A DNA stretch of 50,438 nt. It comes from Gemmatimonadaceae bacterium (GTDB taxonomy: Bacteria > Gemmatimonadota > Gemmatimonadetes > Gemmatimonadales > Gemmatimonadaceae). A model generated the notes under the pieces. It saw only the letters and a list, made by a program, of their open reading frames with translations. It made no database searches and had not been told where the DNA came from. Shown here piece by piece: positions 10,179-50,438 of this stretch. The position numbers and the translations under genes were made by a program. The stretch lies in the NCBI GenBank assembly GCA_025362035.1, contig JANYIN010000053.1, positions 1 to 50,438 on the forward strand. The letters are read 5' to 3'. Each line of letters opens with the position of its first letter. The first letter of the stretch is position 1.

Positions 10179-12703
10179 GTGGCCGTCAGCCGCAGGACAT
10201 CGCCCAACACGCCGGCGGCGGTCACCTCGGTTCCGGCGCCGGGACCGGATACGACGAGCGGGCGCGCGCGATATCGCGCCGTGGTGAAGACAAACAGGTT
10301 GTCCGTTCCGTCCAGGGAGGCGAGCGGGCTTCCGAGGGGAACGCTCACGAGTCCCACCCGGACACCGCCGCGAGTGGCACGAGCCCGGTAGCGAAGGACC
10401 TCCCCGCGGGTACGCGCGTCGGTGACCCGCTTGTCCCATTCCGCATCACAGCCTGGGAGTGCGGCGAGAAACTCGGCGCGCGATACACCGCGGAGCGCAT
10501 CGGGGACCATTGATTCGAGCGCCACCTCGGACATCTCGCCCGTGTAGCCGAGCATGCGACCGAGAATCAACCCTTTGCGTGCGACGTCCAGTCCGGAGAG
10601 ATCGTCGCGCGGATCGGGCTCCGTGTACCCGCGCGTCATCGCCTCGAGCACCACGTCGGAGAACGCCCGGCCGCGGCCCATTTCGCTGAAGAGAAATCCC
10701 ATGGTGCCGGAGGGAGAGCAGTCCACACTGTCTACGCGGTCACCGGAGGCATGCAGTTGCTGCAGCGTGTCGATTACCGGGAGCCCCGCTCCCACCGTGG
10801 CCTCGTGTAGTACGCGTCGGCCGGCGGCGCGCGCATCCTGGAGAATCGTCCGCGATGAGTCCAGGGATGAGGCCAGGGGCACCTTGTTGGCGAGCACCAG
10901 GTCCATCCCGTGGGCCAGCGCGGCGACCAGGGCGGGCGCGGTGTCGCCGCTAGCCACATCGACGACCACGGGCCGCGTGAGCGCATGGGACGCCATGAAC
11001 AGGACGGCGTCCCGCGCCGTTGCGGCGCGTCCGGTTGCCACGTGCTCGAGCGCCCCGCCGTGTTGCTTGTGGCGCACGATCGCCGACGTCTGGCGCGCGG
11101 TCATGCCGCGAGGGTTGAAGACATAGCCACTACGGTCGATCATCCCGATGATGCGCATCGACGGCCCCTTCCGGCGGGAGAGCGCCGCAAACTGCGTCAC
11201 GAACTCCTGCGCCACACGCCCCATGCCCAACAGGATGATGTCGGTGTGCCGCGTGCGACGGCTGGCTCTTCCACCACCGACCTTGCCCAACTGAAAAGCG
11301 TCGTGCACGGCCCGCACGGCAGCGGGCGCGTCGCTGGTATCGACCACGAACGAGACATTGCGTTCCGACGCACCCTGCGCGATGGCTACGACGTTGACCG
11401 CGGCGTCCGCCACCGCCGAGAAGATCCGGGCCGCGATACCGGGCGTACTTGCCATTCCTGATCCCACCACGGCAATCGTGGTCAGATTGACGCGTGCGCC
11501 GATGTCGTCCACTTCACGCCGCTCGAGCTCCTCGGCGAACGCGCTGCGCAGACGCTCCACCACATCCGTCGCGCGATCCGAGGGAACTGTGAAGCAGATG
11601 GATTGTTCGGATGACGCCTGGGAGATCATGGACACGGAGATGTGCGCCGAGGCGAGCGCTCCGAAGACCCGGGCGGCCACACCGGGAACGCCGAGCATGC
11701 CCGTTCCGCTCACGGCCACGAGTGCCTGTTCGGACATCCCTGAAATAGCGCGTACCGGCGCGCCACGTGCCACCTTCCCCACGACGATGGTAGTGCCCGC
11801 CGCACTGGGGTCGGCAAATGGCCGAAGGCGGAGTGTCATGCCCGGTTTCAGTGGAATGAGCGTGCGGGGATGCAGGACCTTTGCCCCGTAATACGCCAGT
11901 TCGGATGCCTCGCGCGCATCCAGCAGCGGCACCACGCGGGCATCGGGCACGATGCGCGGATCGGCGGTCATGCACCCCGCGACGTCCTTCCAGAGAATCA
12001 CTTCATGCGCGTCCAGCGCCCGCGCGAGCACGGCGGCCGTAAGGTCCGACCCGCCTCGGCCGAGCGTTACCACGTTCCCATCACGGCCGGCTCCGATGAA
12101 GCCCGATACGACCACCGTCATATCGCGCTCAAACCACGGTTCGAGCGCGTGGGCCGCCGTGGCGTCGGTGCGCGCCAGATCCGGAGCGGCATTGCCATGC
12201 CGTCCGTCGGTCCAGATCAGTTCCGCGCCGTCCACGACCGTACTGATCATGCCTCGTGCCTGTAGCATTGCGCTCACGATCTTCGCGGCCTGTCGTTCGC
12301 CGAATGCCAGGATCGCGTCCGACAGCGCCCCGGTGCCCGGCTCGGTCACCTTCACGTCGGCGAGCTGAGCGCGCAGGTCATCGCTGGCCGTGTGGAGCGA
12401 GGTGAGGAGCGTGGCGCGTTCGGACGCTGCGGATCCGGCGAGAAGCGACGACGCCACCGCGATGTGGCGCGCGCTCAGCTCGCGCACCAGTTCGTTCGCC
12501 GCCGCGTGCTCGCCAGCGATCGAGAGGCGAATGGCTTCGAGCAATTGATTCGTGACACCTTGCAGCGCCGATGTGACGATCACGCGTCGCTGGACCGTGA
12601 CGTCCGAGGCGAGCAAGGCGCCGACGTTCGCAATGGCGGCGGCATCCGCGAGTGCGGCGCCACCGAACTTGTGGACAACGACGGGAATAACGGACAACGG
12701 CAT
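10175..12703 (-). CDS. thrA: bifunctional aspartate kinase / homoserine dehydrogenase
   Basis: An 842-residue fusion enzyme: aspartokinase from the VVVHKFGG motif (K12) to about residue 290, two ACT domains (about 300-460, containing GVPGVAARVF and STPGIAARIF) that normally bind threonine, and homoserine dehydrogenase from about 475 (IILLGMGRVAQEF) to the C-terminus. It carries out the first and third steps from aspartate to threonine. The start at 12703 keeps the kinase motif close to the N-terminus; an upstream TTG/GTG in frame would read through the leader terminator and is rejected. It is the first structural gene behind the threonine leader and attenuator, and overlaps thrB by 4 bases. 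Confidence 0.95.
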   Translation of the reverse strand: MPLSVIPVVVHKFGGAALADAAAIANVGALLASDVTVQRRVIVTSALQGVTNQLLEAIRLSIAGEHAAANELVRELSARHIAVASSLLAGSAASERATLLTSLHTASDDLRAQLADVKVTEPGTGALSDAILAFGERQAAKIVSAMLQARGMISTVVDGAELIWTDGRHGNAAPDLARTDATAAHALEPWFERDMTVVVSGFIGAGRDGNVVTLGRGGSDLTAAVLARALDAHEVILWKDVAGCMTADPRIVPDARVVPLLDAREASELAYYGAKVLHPRTLIPLKPGMTLRLRPFADPSAAGTTIVVGKVARGAPVRAISGMSEQALVAVSGTGMLGVPGVAARVFGALASAHISVSMISQASSEQSICFTVPSDRATDVVERLRSAFAEELERREVDDIGARVNLTTIAVVGSGMASTPGIAARIFSAVADAAVNVVAIAQGASERNVSFVVDTSDAPAAVRAVHDAFQLGKVGGGRASRRTRHTDIILLGMGRVAQEFVTQFAALSRRKGPSMRIIGMIDRSGYVFNPRGMTARQTSAIVRHKQHGGALEHVATGRAATARDAVLFMASHALTRPVVVDVASGDTAPALVAALAHGMDLVLANKVPLASSLDSSRTILQDARAAGRRVLHEATVGAGLPVIDTLQQLHASGDRVDSVDCSPSGTMGFLFSEMGRGRAFSDVVLEAMTRGYTEPDPRDDLSGLDVARKGLILGRMLGYTGEMSEVALESMVPDALRGVSRAEFLAALPGCDAEWDKRVTDARTRGEVLRYRARATRGGVRVGLVSVPLGSPLASLDGTDNLFVFTTARYRARPLVVSGPGAGTEVTAAGVLGDVLRLTAT

Positions 12704-12725: not shown

Positions 12726-12756
12726 AAAAAAAGAGCGGCCTCCAGTGGAGGGCCGC
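12726..12756 (-). terminator. intrinsic terminator (attenuator) in front of thrA
   Basis: In the transcript the 5' arm (12756-12747) and 3' arm (12743-12735) form a 9-bp GC-rich stem with one bulged C and a 3-base loop, followed after TC by seven T residues (12732-12726). It sits 22 bases before the thrA start and 23 bases after the stop of a threonine-rich leader ORF, so read-through of it must decide expression of the operon. The 5' arm contains CCTCC, which is complementary to GGAGG at 12806-12802 inside the leader ORF, a possible antiterminator. Confidence 0.85.
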
Positions 12757-12779: not shown

Positions 12780-12857
12780 CTACTCGGACGCGACCGCGAC
12801 GCCTCCCGTCGTGGAAGTCGTGCGCGTCGTCATGGAATTGCGATGGACGGGCGTCAT
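12780..12857 (-). CDS. thrL: threonine operon leader peptide
   Basis: A 25-codon ORF from ATG at 12857 (a second in-frame ATG is at 12833) to TAG at 12782-12780. From the second methionine it reads MTTRTTSTTGGVAVASE: six threonine codons (ACG ACG, ACG ACT, ACG ACG) within eight codons. A GTGAG sequence precedes the first ATG. It lies between the MBL gene and the thrA attenuator. By analogy with the enterobacterial thr leader, stalling of the ribosome at these codons when charged threonyl-tRNA is scarce would prevent the terminator from forming. No isoleucine codons are present, so control may respond to threonine alone. Confidence 0.85.
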   Translation of the reverse strand: MTPVHRNSMTTRTTSTTGGVAVASE

Positions 12858-47038: not shown

Positions 47039-48796
47039 CTAAGACGCCTCGACTAGTACTCTTTCAGCAGCTTCGACTGGCCGCAGGTCCGCAAGTATCG
47101 GGTCAGGAGCATCCCAAATAACGATGCCGCGGCAGTGGGCACCTGTTTTCTCGATATCCGACAATACGGCGGACAGCGTGGCTATCGTGGTCTGCCCTGT
47201 GCGAACGCAATAGATCACGTCCGATATAGGGAGCCCAGACGGCAGCCCTTCCAGTACCTGCTCGAGCGCGCTCACCAATACAATGGCATCGTACTGTCGG
47301 GTGAGACGCCCCACGTCGTGATTGAGCAAAGTTGCGATCTTGCCCATCGTGAGTGGGCCTTCGCCACTGGGAATGACGTCGATCGAGCGGTCCCGACCCA
47401 ACTGAGCTGCTCGAGTCACCTCGCCCCATCGTGCTGTCCCGGTCGCGAGTTCCGTGACACCGGCGCCCGGCCGAAGTCTCAGCGAGGCCATCACGGATGC
47501 AGCCACGGGATCGGTATCGATCAGCACTGTCGAACGCGCCTCGTCGGAGGCGATGGCAGCAAAATTGATTGCCACAATCGCCGAGACTGCCGGGAGGTCG
47601 CTGGTGACCGTCAGCATCACGGTACCAACACCAGCTGTCACAATTGCCTGGTAGATCAGCTGGTGCCCGTCTGCGCCGGGATCGATGTAGGTCGGTCCAG
47701 CTCGTTCCGCGGACCTCCTCCCACGCTCCGGTGACGGCGGAAGCGGGCGAATCACACCCAGTACGCGCACTCCGCTCGCTCGCTCTGCTTCGCGTGCGTT
47801 CGAGATTCTTGGGTTGCGAACTTCATCCAGCAGAGCAACACCGAATCCGAATATCGCTCCGAACACTAGGGCGGCAGCGAGCATCGCCTGCGGGGAAGCA
47901 CCGACGTTGGCCAGTTCGCGCGCCCGCGCTTCTTGTTCGTCGAGGCGAATAAGCTCGCTACGCTCCCGCGCCAACTCTGCCGCGGCCGACGACGACGCGA
48001 TGCGGGCGTCACGACGTTCTTTCACACGCGCCAGGGTATCTGGCAACATTCGTCGTGGTGCCGCCGCCAAGGCGACTGGAATTCCTGGTTCCAATGTGGC
48101 GATTTCCCGTCTGATTGCAGTTCGCTTGGCGTCAGCAACCGCCTCGATGCTGCGTCCGAGTTCGTTTGCCCGGGCCGTAAGCGCCACGAAGACCGGATCC
48201 ACGCCGCCCACGGCGCTGTAGCTATCTCGTTCCCGTTCGATCTCGATCAACGAGTCGAGAAGCTGGCGAACTCGTGCATCTCCCTGCATGGGACCCGCCA
48301 ATGCCAGTGCGCGATAGGAGGCTAGAAGGGGCGCGTTTTCGGATCGGCTGATGAGCCGCCCCAGCAGACCCGCTTGGGCAGCCAATGTATCCCGACGGCT
48401 TCGAGCGACCGGATTGAGTGTATCACCTCCCGATGCGGCGTCTGGCGCGGCTGTGGGAGCGCTTGCGGCCGTCATTAGTGTCACGACCTCCGCGCGGGCG
48501 GCGACCAATGCAGCCTCCGACATCGCGGCGCGTGTCTCGGCCTGCGCGAGAAGGGCGGCACTATGTTCGGTATCGGGCCTAGCCAGAGCATTCGTCGTAA
48601 TGGCCGCGGCGGCCTTCCTGGCCTGCTGAGGGACGATGACGAGCGCGACGAGCGCGACGGCGAAGGCCCCGATACTCACCGTGGCGACGAAGATCGTTCG
48701 GCGCAGGGCGTTCGTGGCGCGCGCCGCGATCCACGCTACCGATGCGGAGAGCGGGCGAGCTAAACGGCGACGAGATTGGGGGCGACGCGAGCTCAT
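47039..48796 (-). CDS. Wzc/GumC-like chain-length-determinant protein with degenerate P-loop
   Basis: A 585-residue inner-membrane protein. A basic N-terminus precedes a membrane segment (IFVATVSIGAFAVALVALVIV, about 36-56), a long periplasmic coiled-coil-like region rich in alanine and arginine (about 60-300), a second membrane segment (AMLAAALVFGAIFGFGVALLDEV, about 305-327) and a cytoplasmic domain with the order of a BY-kinase. There the Walker A site that should follow LTVTSD reads LPAVSAIVAINFAA, lacking the GKT, while TVLIDTDP keeps a Walker A'-like aspartate. It therefore resembles a polysaccharide co-polymerase whose kinase part is inactive. No polysaccharide genes are nearby. Confidence 0.75.
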   Translation of the reverse strand: MSSRRPQSRRRLARPLSASVAWIAARATNALRRTIFVATVSIGAFAVALVALVIVPQQARKAAAAITTNALARPDTEHSAALLAQAETRAAMSEAALVAARAEVVTLMTAASAPTAAPDAASGGDTLNPVARSRRDTLAAQAGLLGRLISRSENAPLLASYRALALAGPMQGDARVRQLLDSLIEIERERDSYSAVGGVDPVFVALTARANELGRSIEAVADAKRTAIRREIATLEPGIPVALAAAPRRMLPDTLARVKERRDARIASSSAAAELARERSELIRLDEQEARARELANVGASPQAMLAAALVFGAIFGFGVALLDEVRNPRISNAREAERASGVRVLGVIRPLPPSPERGRRSAERAGPTYIDPGADGHQLIYQAIVTAGVGTVMLTVTSDLPAVSAIVAINFAAIASDEARSTVLIDTDPVAASVMASLRLRPGAGVTELATGTARWGEVTRAAQLGRDRSIDVIPSGEGPLTMGKIATLLNHDVGRLTRQYDAIVLVSALEQVLEGLPSGLPISDVIYCVRTGQTTIATLSAVLSDIEKTGAHCRGIVIWDAPDPILADLRPVEAAERVLVEAS

Positions 48797-49579: not shown

Positions 49580-49608
49580 TTGACCGGACAGAGGCCAAAC
49601 AATAGCTT
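49580..49608 (+). promoter_or_regulatory. possible promoter of the his leader
   Basis: TTGACC (49580-49585), 17 bases, TAGCTT (49603-49608). If used, transcription would begin about 49615, exactly at the GTG of the leader ORF, giving a leaderless message. The -10 match is poor. Confidence 0.35.
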
Positions 49609-49614
49609 GCCGAG

Positions 49615-49692
49615 GTGACGATCTCCCATCGGCCCCATCGCGTGCATCAACACGGACTCCCGGGTCGGGGCGACGCGCGCGTGCAGGAGTAA
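49615..49692 (+). CDS. hisL: histidine operon leader peptide
   Basis: A 25-codon ORF from GTG 49615 to TAA 49690-49692. Its first half reads MTISHRPHRVHQHG: four histidine codons (CAT, CAT, CAT, CAC) within nine codons. It is followed by 40 bases and then an intrinsic terminator directly in front of hisG. This is the layout of his attenuation in enterobacteria, although the histidines here alternate with other residues instead of forming a run. No Shine-Dalgarno site precedes the GTG, so initiation may be leaderless. Confidence 0.8.
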   Translation: MTISHRPHRVHQHGLPGRGDARVQE

Positions 49693-49764
49693 GCAACCGC
49701 TTCTCTGTCGGCACAGCTGCTGGTCTGCTTTCGGCCCGTCCCTCTCGGACGGGTCCTTTTTTTT
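49661..49764 (+). terminator. attenuator of the his operon: antiterminator arm and terminator
   Basis: The terminator stem is 49733-49741 with 49747-49755 (9 bp, one G-T pair, loop CTCTC) followed by CC?-free run C then eight T at 49757-49764. The leader segment CGGGTCG at 49661-49667, just after the histidine codons, can pair with CGGCCCG at 49732-49738, the 5' arm of the terminator, so the two structures exclude each other. The terminator ends 34 bases before the hisG ATG. Confidence 0.8.
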
Positions 49765-49798
49765 GGTTTGTTCCTTCTGCCATTCTCACTCCCCGACG

Positions 49799-50438
49799 AT
49801 GCTGCGCATTGCACTTCCCAACAAGGGCAGACTCTCCGAAGAGGCGCGCGAGTTGTTTACGGACGCTGGACTGGAAATCCGAGCCGCTGGACCTCGGGCC
49901 CTTACCGCCTCACTCGGCAGCGAATTTCAAGCCCTTTTCGTCCGCGCTCAGGATATCCCCGAGTTCGTGGCGGATGGCGCTGCCGATGCCGGCGTCACAG
50001 GCTTCGATCTTATCCGGGAATCCGGCCGACATCTCAAGGAGCTTGCCGATCTCGGATTTGGCGCGTGTCGTCTGGCCGTCGCCGCGAAGGACGACAGTGG
50101 CGTCCAATCACTCGACGACATCCGAACTGGCGCGCGCGTGGCGACGGTATTTCCGCGCATCACAAAGTGGTTCTTTGACCTTCGCGGGCAAGTTGTCGAA
50201 GTCGTGCCGATCTCAGGCGCAGCGGAAATTGCACCGCACATCGGTATCGCGGACGTGATCGTGGATCTCGTATCCACCGGATCGACGCTACGGGTAAATG
50301 GCCTGCGGGAGATTGCGACGGTCCTGGAATCCACCTGCCGGCTGATCTCCACACCAACCGCCCGGTCTGATCCTACTCAGGCTCGCACGCTGGATGAACT
50401 GGTGGCGGCCTTGGGCAGCGTCATCGCCGCGCGCGGCA
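49799..50438 (+). CDS. hisG: ATP phosphoribosyltransferase (cut by window end)
   Basis: The frame is open from ATG 49799 to the end of the window (213 codons). It begins LRIALPNKGRLSEEARELF and carries AGVTGFDLIRESG, FGACRLAVA and DVIVDLVSTGSTLRVNGL, the HisG phosphoribosyl-diphosphate region. It catalyses the first step of histidine synthesis. The VFPRITKWFF segment and the sequence approaching residue 213 suggest the short (HisZ-dependent) or long form cannot yet be told apart. It stands directly behind the his leader and attenuator. Confidence 0.93.
   Translation, partial: MLRIALPNKGRLSEEARELFTDAGLEIRAAGPRALTASLGSEFQALFVRAQDIPEFVADGAADAGVTGFDLIRESGRHLKELADLGFGACRLAVAAKDDSGVQSLDDIRTGARVATVFPRITKWFFDLRGQVVEVVPISGAAEIAPHIGIADVIVDLVSTGSTLRVNGLREIATVLESTCRLISTPTARSDPTQARTLDELVAALGSVIAARG

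Follow-up and report, generated by a model that had tools for sequence, protein, structure and literature searches.

Leader and terminator in front of hisG

How might transcription into the histidine genes be controlled in this Gemmatimonadaceae bacterium, and is the arrangement in front of its hisG as unusual as a first-pass annotation proposed? The window, that is the whole 50,438-nt stretch of DNA analysed here, contains at this place a GTG-initiated ORF of 25 codons that ends in TAA and encodes the peptide VTISHRPHRVHQHGLPGRGDARVQE, with histidine at codons 5, 8, 11 and 13 and thus four histidine codons in nine. The annotation had also described an intrinsic terminator with eight T downstream of the ORF and a competing pairing of CGGGTCG with CGGCCCG, and both are found as claimed (Table 1). 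The terminator stem comprises nine pairs with a 5-nt loop and is followed by C and eight T. How the operon may continue past the truncated hisG can be seen in the relative L036, where a histidinol dehydrogenase, an aminotransferase, a glutamine amidotransferase and a His_biosynth gene follow. Farther upstream in the window, a 585-aa ORF (47039-48796, minus strand) looks by eye like a membrane-anchored polysaccharide chain-length or tyrosine-kinase-like protein.

Table 1. Positions of the leader elements in the window and of the Phe/Tyr leader elsewhere in the same genome.
Feature	Position	Strand	Remarks
-35 box TTGACC	49580..49585	+	TTGAC recurs in relatives
-10 box TAGCTT	49603..49608	+	17-nt spacer; 6 nt upstream of GTG
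his leader ORF	49615..49692	+	GTG start, TAA stop; probably leaderless
His-codon region	49627..49653	+	His codons at 49627, 49636, 49645, 49651; aligns with His run of relatives
Helix P, 5' strand	49639..49644	+	includes conserved non-His codon, GTG 49642-49644
Hairpin S (small)	49653..49667	+	weak in window: -0.5 kcal/mol vs median -8.7 (52 relatives)
Antiterminator arm CGGGTCG	49661..49667	+	within leader ORF
Helix P, 3' strand	49678..49683	+	
Arm partner CGGCCCG	49732..49738	+	overlaps 5' arm of terminator
Intrinsic terminator	49733..49764	+	stem 49733-49755, T run 49757-49764
hisG	49799..50438	+	first gene past terminator; truncated by contig end; Pfam HisG, 2.5e-49
Thr leader ORF	12780..12857	-	MTPVHRNSMTTRTTSTTGGVAVASE; before aspartokinase-domain gene starting at 12703
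Thr leader terminator	12735..12756	-	GCGGCCCTCCACTGGAGGCCGC; T run next
Phe/Tyr leader (L251 / L318)	G000:C158:19797-19971	-	same terminator type, before DAHP synthase

Taken by itself the window terminator is not significant, because a generic terminator scan yields 1.1 sites of this kind on shuffled DNA; this speaks for a histidine-rich ORF that lies beside an ordinary terminator by chance. Short ORFs (at most 70 codons) with at least four histidines per ten codons occur only twice on both strands of the 50-kb window. The more specific terminator pattern GGCCCGT-N3-16-ACGGGYC-N0-5-TTTT turns up twice in the 4.64-Mb genome, each time in front of an amino-acid gene with a cognate leader. This distribution argues against a coincidence, and so does the conservation of the leader described below; we regard chance as an almost negligible explanation.

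Conservation across hisG loci

The upstream regions of hisG were compared among relatives, using loci from a HisG search of 60 related genomes (41 with a match, 30 loci taken) and from a search in named genomes, where the best 80 of 175 relatives were kept. Subtracting 10 repeats and 2 loci with too little upstream DNA from these 110 left 98 distinct upstreams. A histidine-rich leader ORF with at least four histidines in nine codons is found in 96 of them and a terminator in 97, with a stem of at least eight pairs in 94 and weaker stems in L026, L075 and L105. This conservation is the strongest evidence that the his leader and its terminator are real. Of the two upstreams that lack a called leader ORF, L021 has Ns inside the leader, though its His run is visible, and L030 has a hisG that is 45% identical and lies downstream of a gene read as hisZ. 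Retention of the terminator with loss of the histidine codons is seen at none of the 98 loci, bar L021 with its Ns.

By their record titles the carriers of the leader are Gemmatimonadota and Myxococcota, together with three 'Ca. Eisenbacteria' MAGs and some entries with odd names. At L084, L097, L045, L055 and L071 the leader occurs under titles that would not be expected, namely Comamonas sp., Ca. Kuenenia and Ca. Eisenbacteria, which may reflect mislabelling, contamination or transfer.

The usual leader core reads HHH-[A/V/T]-HHHH, followed by GPTGRG. Among the 72 non-Myxococcota loci, four histidines per nine codons occur in 5, five in 18, six in 36, seven in 12 and eight in 1, so that 67 carry five to eight, the run being usually interrupted midway by a single conserved non-His codon; the 24 Myxococcota-type loci have five to seven. 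The first-pass annotation had taken the alternation of histidine with other codons for an unusual design, a view that the comparison does not bear out: since relatives carry fuller runs and the window copy is among those with the fewest histidines, H-R-P-H-R-V-H-Q-H is best taken for a thinned version. Two other runs in the same genus are thinned as well, with four histidines in L005 (H-R-H-A-Q-L-H-H) and five in L007 (H-R-H-L-H-H-H-Y).

A probably leaderless start

At 60 of the 72 non-Myxococcota loci, a -35 box matching five of six letters is combined with a TAnnnT -10 box whose end lies 5-10 nt upstream of a leader start. The same geometry was met on average 0.09 times (maximum 1) in 200 dinucleotide shuffles and at no hisG start. 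If transcription starts at the usual distance from such a promoter, no room is left for a ribosome-binding site, and the GTG-started leader ORF is therefore probably leaderless, as the annotation had considered possible; in the window the gap is 6 nt. The window promoter is called by comparison with relatives, and a generic sigma-70 scan of the window did not report one before the leader. None of the 24 Myxococcota-type loci matches the box rule, which was not fitted to Myxococcota; by eye they show a TTGAC box and a different -10.

Alternative helices

Structural analysis started from alignment A1, which holds 52 of 70 non-redundant leaders and served as the source of the covariance model of the his leader (model R1), of a helix scan, of an RNAalifold run and of nascent-RNA folding. 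The helix scan and RNAalifold, the latter unprompted, agree on three helices: P, which pairs the central part of the His run, conserved non-His codon included, with the leader end; S, a small hairpin that contains the antiterminator arm; and T, the terminator. As 18 leaders, untypical ones among them, had been excluded from A1 by hand, the counts were redone on all 70 (alignment A3), and the result holds. There P, S and T together reach 92.7% pairing and show 12 doubly changed pairs; slid registers attain at most 45.0%. None of 500 shuffles was as good on any of five measures, although such shuffles do not remove relatedness.

Helix P alone is 84.0% paired in the 70 leaders. Slid by two columns it still reaches 68.0% and 64.6%, owing to the many alternating C and G in its strands, and its number of further pair types was attained by 62 of 500 shuffles. 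Column 30, the wobble base of a His codon, varies together with column 85 (CG 23, UG 20, UA 17, other 10). When strands were swapped between loci, the own P pairing was superior at 55 of 72 loci (p=7e-6) and at 17 of 24 Myxococcota-type loci (p=0.008), and two control segment pairs gave no comparable excess. Judged from these alignments, the conserved non-His codon that interrupts the His run is structural and belongs to helix P. The outermost P pair of an earlier helix set was dropped, being unpaired in 44 of 52 leaders.

The antiterminator is 85.9% paired in its own register across the 70 leaders and at most 48.4% in slid ones. It is almost invariant and offers little covariation: its doubly changed pairs were matched by 184 of 500 shuffles, and a swap test within his leaders was not significant (p=0.13). 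In predicted nascent RNAs the antiterminator forms in 50 of 52 leaders with the His run masked versus 36 of 52 unmasked. The difference is compatible with classical attenuation but no proof of it, and the preference for the antiterminator already seen in the unmasked RNAs counts against the model.

In the window, P and S together are weak (-6.3 kcal/mol versus a median of -11.4). Combined with a run of only four histidine codons, found at 5 of 72 loci, these feeble helices could indicate a decayed attenuator that has inherited the structure, has lost some or all of its response to histidine and now relies on the terminator for a constant level of read-through. The window nevertheless retains promoter, ORF, antiterminator arm and a strong terminator (-17.4 kcal/mol, median -18.2), and L005 and L007 show that other members of the genus also have few histidines, so that a thin run may suffice. 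Decay of the window copy thus appears unlikely to us.

Very probably, then, the his operon is controlled by a ribosome-dependent transcription attenuator. The annotation's proposal of a his attenuator is supported by the conserved leader ORF, the terminator and the alternative helices, and by all the sequence evidence it is one that is ordinary in principle. From the ORF, its His codons, the promoter geometry, the terminator, the alternative helices and their conservation we infer the start site, stalling and switching. Transcription would start at or next to the GTG, and a ribosome would initiate on the leaderless mRNA. With charged His-tRNA plentiful it would clear the His codons, letting helix P and hairpin S sequester the antiterminator arm; the terminator would then fold and transcription end before hisG. 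With charged His-tRNA scarce, the ribosome would stall in the His run and block helix P, leaving the arm to pair with the 5' side of the terminator while RNA polymerase continues into hisG.

Related leaders with other sensor codons

The annotation had linked the his element to a Thr leader in the same window and suggested leader-peptide attenuation as a general strategy of the organism. This idea gains from the genome itself, which has His, Thr and Phe/Tyr leaders, the last with the peptide MTSRASFYYGFYIYGFTLTGRGRSRTRE before DAHP synthase. For acetolactate synthase and leuA, no match in this genome exceeds the family cut-off. Among 11 thrA upstreams, a clear Thr leader with terminator is seen only in the window and in L201; L196 has a terminator without a Thr run, contig ends truncate L198 and L202, and no Thr leader was seen in the remaining six. 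For ilvB, trpE and leuA, 26 genomes were searched per gene, and the upstreams of 8 ilvB, 8 leuA and 12 trpE loci were read by eye. No leader emerged from the 12 trpE upstreams or from partial upstream scans of 30 trpE and 8 ilvB loci; the partial scan of 9 leuA loci gave two candidates, L172 and L178. Leu-type leaders with terminators were accepted before leuA only in L171 and L172, from two genomes of the order to which the window belongs, and an Ile/Leu/Val-type leader was accepted before ilvD in L317, from one genome of its genus.

Model R1 matches 103 of 298 Gemmatimonadota genomes and 46 of 119 genera, some of its weak matches being leaders of other genes. Among 20 R1 regions chosen by hand, 19 have a leader (L259 included) and L262 is not one. 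R1 found Tyr leaders upstream of a biopterin-dependent hydroxylase, taken to be phenylalanine hydroxylase, Tyr/Phe leaders before DAHP synthase, the one in the window's own genome included, and a leader before ilvD; the Tyr leaders occur in many Gemmatimonadota (L306, L308, L311, L315, L316 and others). One genome (G120:C210) carries two His leaders 9.5 kb apart (L252, L253), one in front of hisG and the other, also among the R1 regions, in front of an aminotransferase read as hisC. The terminator pattern in its ACGGGCC form is found in 35 of 59 family genomes. Of 16 regions taken from it, hand-chosen and including five already known leaders, 15 have a cognate leader, and L313 is a coding gene read as a sigma factor. 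In five genomes, four of Myxococcota and that of L071, the pattern outside the his locus (L320, L321) has no leader.

A second model, R2, was built from 14 aromatic (Tyr/Phe) leaders and matches 89 of 298 genomes and 41 of 119 genera, his leaders included. We read 70 of its 116 rows; the others are 18 R1 places, 4 short opposite-strand matches and 24 unread rows. Hydroxylase leaders (n=22) have at least three Tyr in 21 cases and three Phe in none, DAHP synthase leaders (n=38) at least three Tyr in 31 and Phe in 26, and the six prephenate dehydratase or chorismate mutase leaders all have at least three Phe and none three Tyr. Two aspartokinase leaders have at least six Thr each, and two leaders have no gene found downstream; at least six Thr also occur in one hydroxylase, one DAHP synthase and one prephenate dehydratase leader. 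Phe is thus more frequent before DAHP synthase (26/38) than before the hydroxylase (5/22; p=0.001, not corrected for relatedness). These counts follow from peptides picked among candidate starts by the highest Tyr, Phe, His or Trp count, which favours such frames, and from a model trained on Tyr/Phe leaders; Phe-only and Thr leaders fall outside this training set. Hydroxylase and DAHP synthase were called by tblastn to one reference each, with a weak match for L328 (5e-7). The leaderless promoter geometry recurs in 39 of the 70 R2 leaders, and GR, encoded by the antiterminator arm, lies within the last 14 residues in 49.

The pair flanking the antiterminator changes from G:C in his leaders (36/69) to C:G in aromatic leaders (38/57). 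Aromatic leaders pair better with their own arm (53 of 57, p=3.6e-10), but his leaders pair no better with theirs than with aromatic arms (34 of 69, p=0.97). For lack of a recognised arm or position, 3 of the 72 his loci and 13 of the 70 R2 loci were dropped from this comparison.

The sensor codons of the sibling leaders match the downstream gene. This bears on a further reading, in which the leader RNA would act through a ligand, a tRNA or a protein and the ORF would be incidental. A structured RNA in front of a biosynthetic gene is what such regulation would look like, yet His codons survive CAT/CAC exchanges among relatives, and Tyr, Phe or Thr codons replace them before matching genes. Moreover, neither the window nor seven relatives gave a match at the gathering threshold in a search with 4227 Rfam models, and below it only unrelated sRNA families came up. 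We consider this reading highly improbable and retain the translating ribosome as the presumed sensor.

T-box riboswitches use one RNA architecture with exchangeable specifier codons in front of many amino-acid genes and bind tRNA directly. On balance we favour the view that Gemmatimonadota possess a ribosome-read counterpart, a leaderless attenuator layout that is used again and again with nothing but the sensor codons swapped (His, Tyr, Tyr/Phe, Phe, Thr, perhaps Ile/Leu/Val) and that includes Tyr-sensing leaders before phenylalanine hydroxylase. Exchangeable codons would be common to both systems; here the sensor would be the translating ribosome rather than tRNA binding.

Relation to known attenuators

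The enterobacterial his leader has a run of seven histidines, and its attenuator, hisL, is presumably the Rfam family named His_leader. Like the element described here, it combines a His-codon leader peptide, alternative helices and an intrinsic terminator before hisG. Unlike it, the present leader is probably leaderless, has a His run broken by one conserved codon in helix P, and finds no Rfam match at the gathering threshold.

Leaderless cysteine attenuators of mycobacteria have reportedly been described by Canestrari in 2020. That work is named in the reference list of PMC13236596, and the S. meliloti trpL RNA begins with the ATG according to PMC7298713. These systems share with ours a leaderless amino-acid-sensing leader ORF, but concern other amino acids and organisms, whereas here one layout would be common to several amino acids.

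His attenuators also occur in the Bacillus cereus group, Eubacteriales and Erysipelotrichales, according to PMC9413887. As described there, these Firmicutes attenuators resemble ours in having a His leader peptide and a terminator with antiterminator before his operons, outside Proteobacteria; they differ by phylum and by their three to five consecutive histidines. According to PMC2965389, leader-peptide systems had previously been shown only in Proteobacteria and Actinobacteria, to which it adds Firmicutes, and a work cited in PMC4833913 looked for His leader peptides among Actinobacteria. In the open-licence literature we found no report of leader-peptide attenuation in Gemmatimonadota, of leader-peptide attenuators in Myxococcus or of such attenuators with tyrosine codons.

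Implications

The present leaders extend leader-peptide attenuation to a phylum for which we found no report, with a leader ORF that seems independent of a ribosome-binding site. They suggest that a single chassis can serve attenuators for different amino acids, which would make codon-swap tests direct and allow amino-acid regulons to be predicted directly in uncultured soil bacteria. The Tyr-codon leaders suggest that phenylalanine hydroxylase serves tyrosine synthesis, a testable statement on the way these bacteria make tyrosine; if the leaders do sense tyrosine, this enzyme would be a regulated step of tyrosine synthesis.
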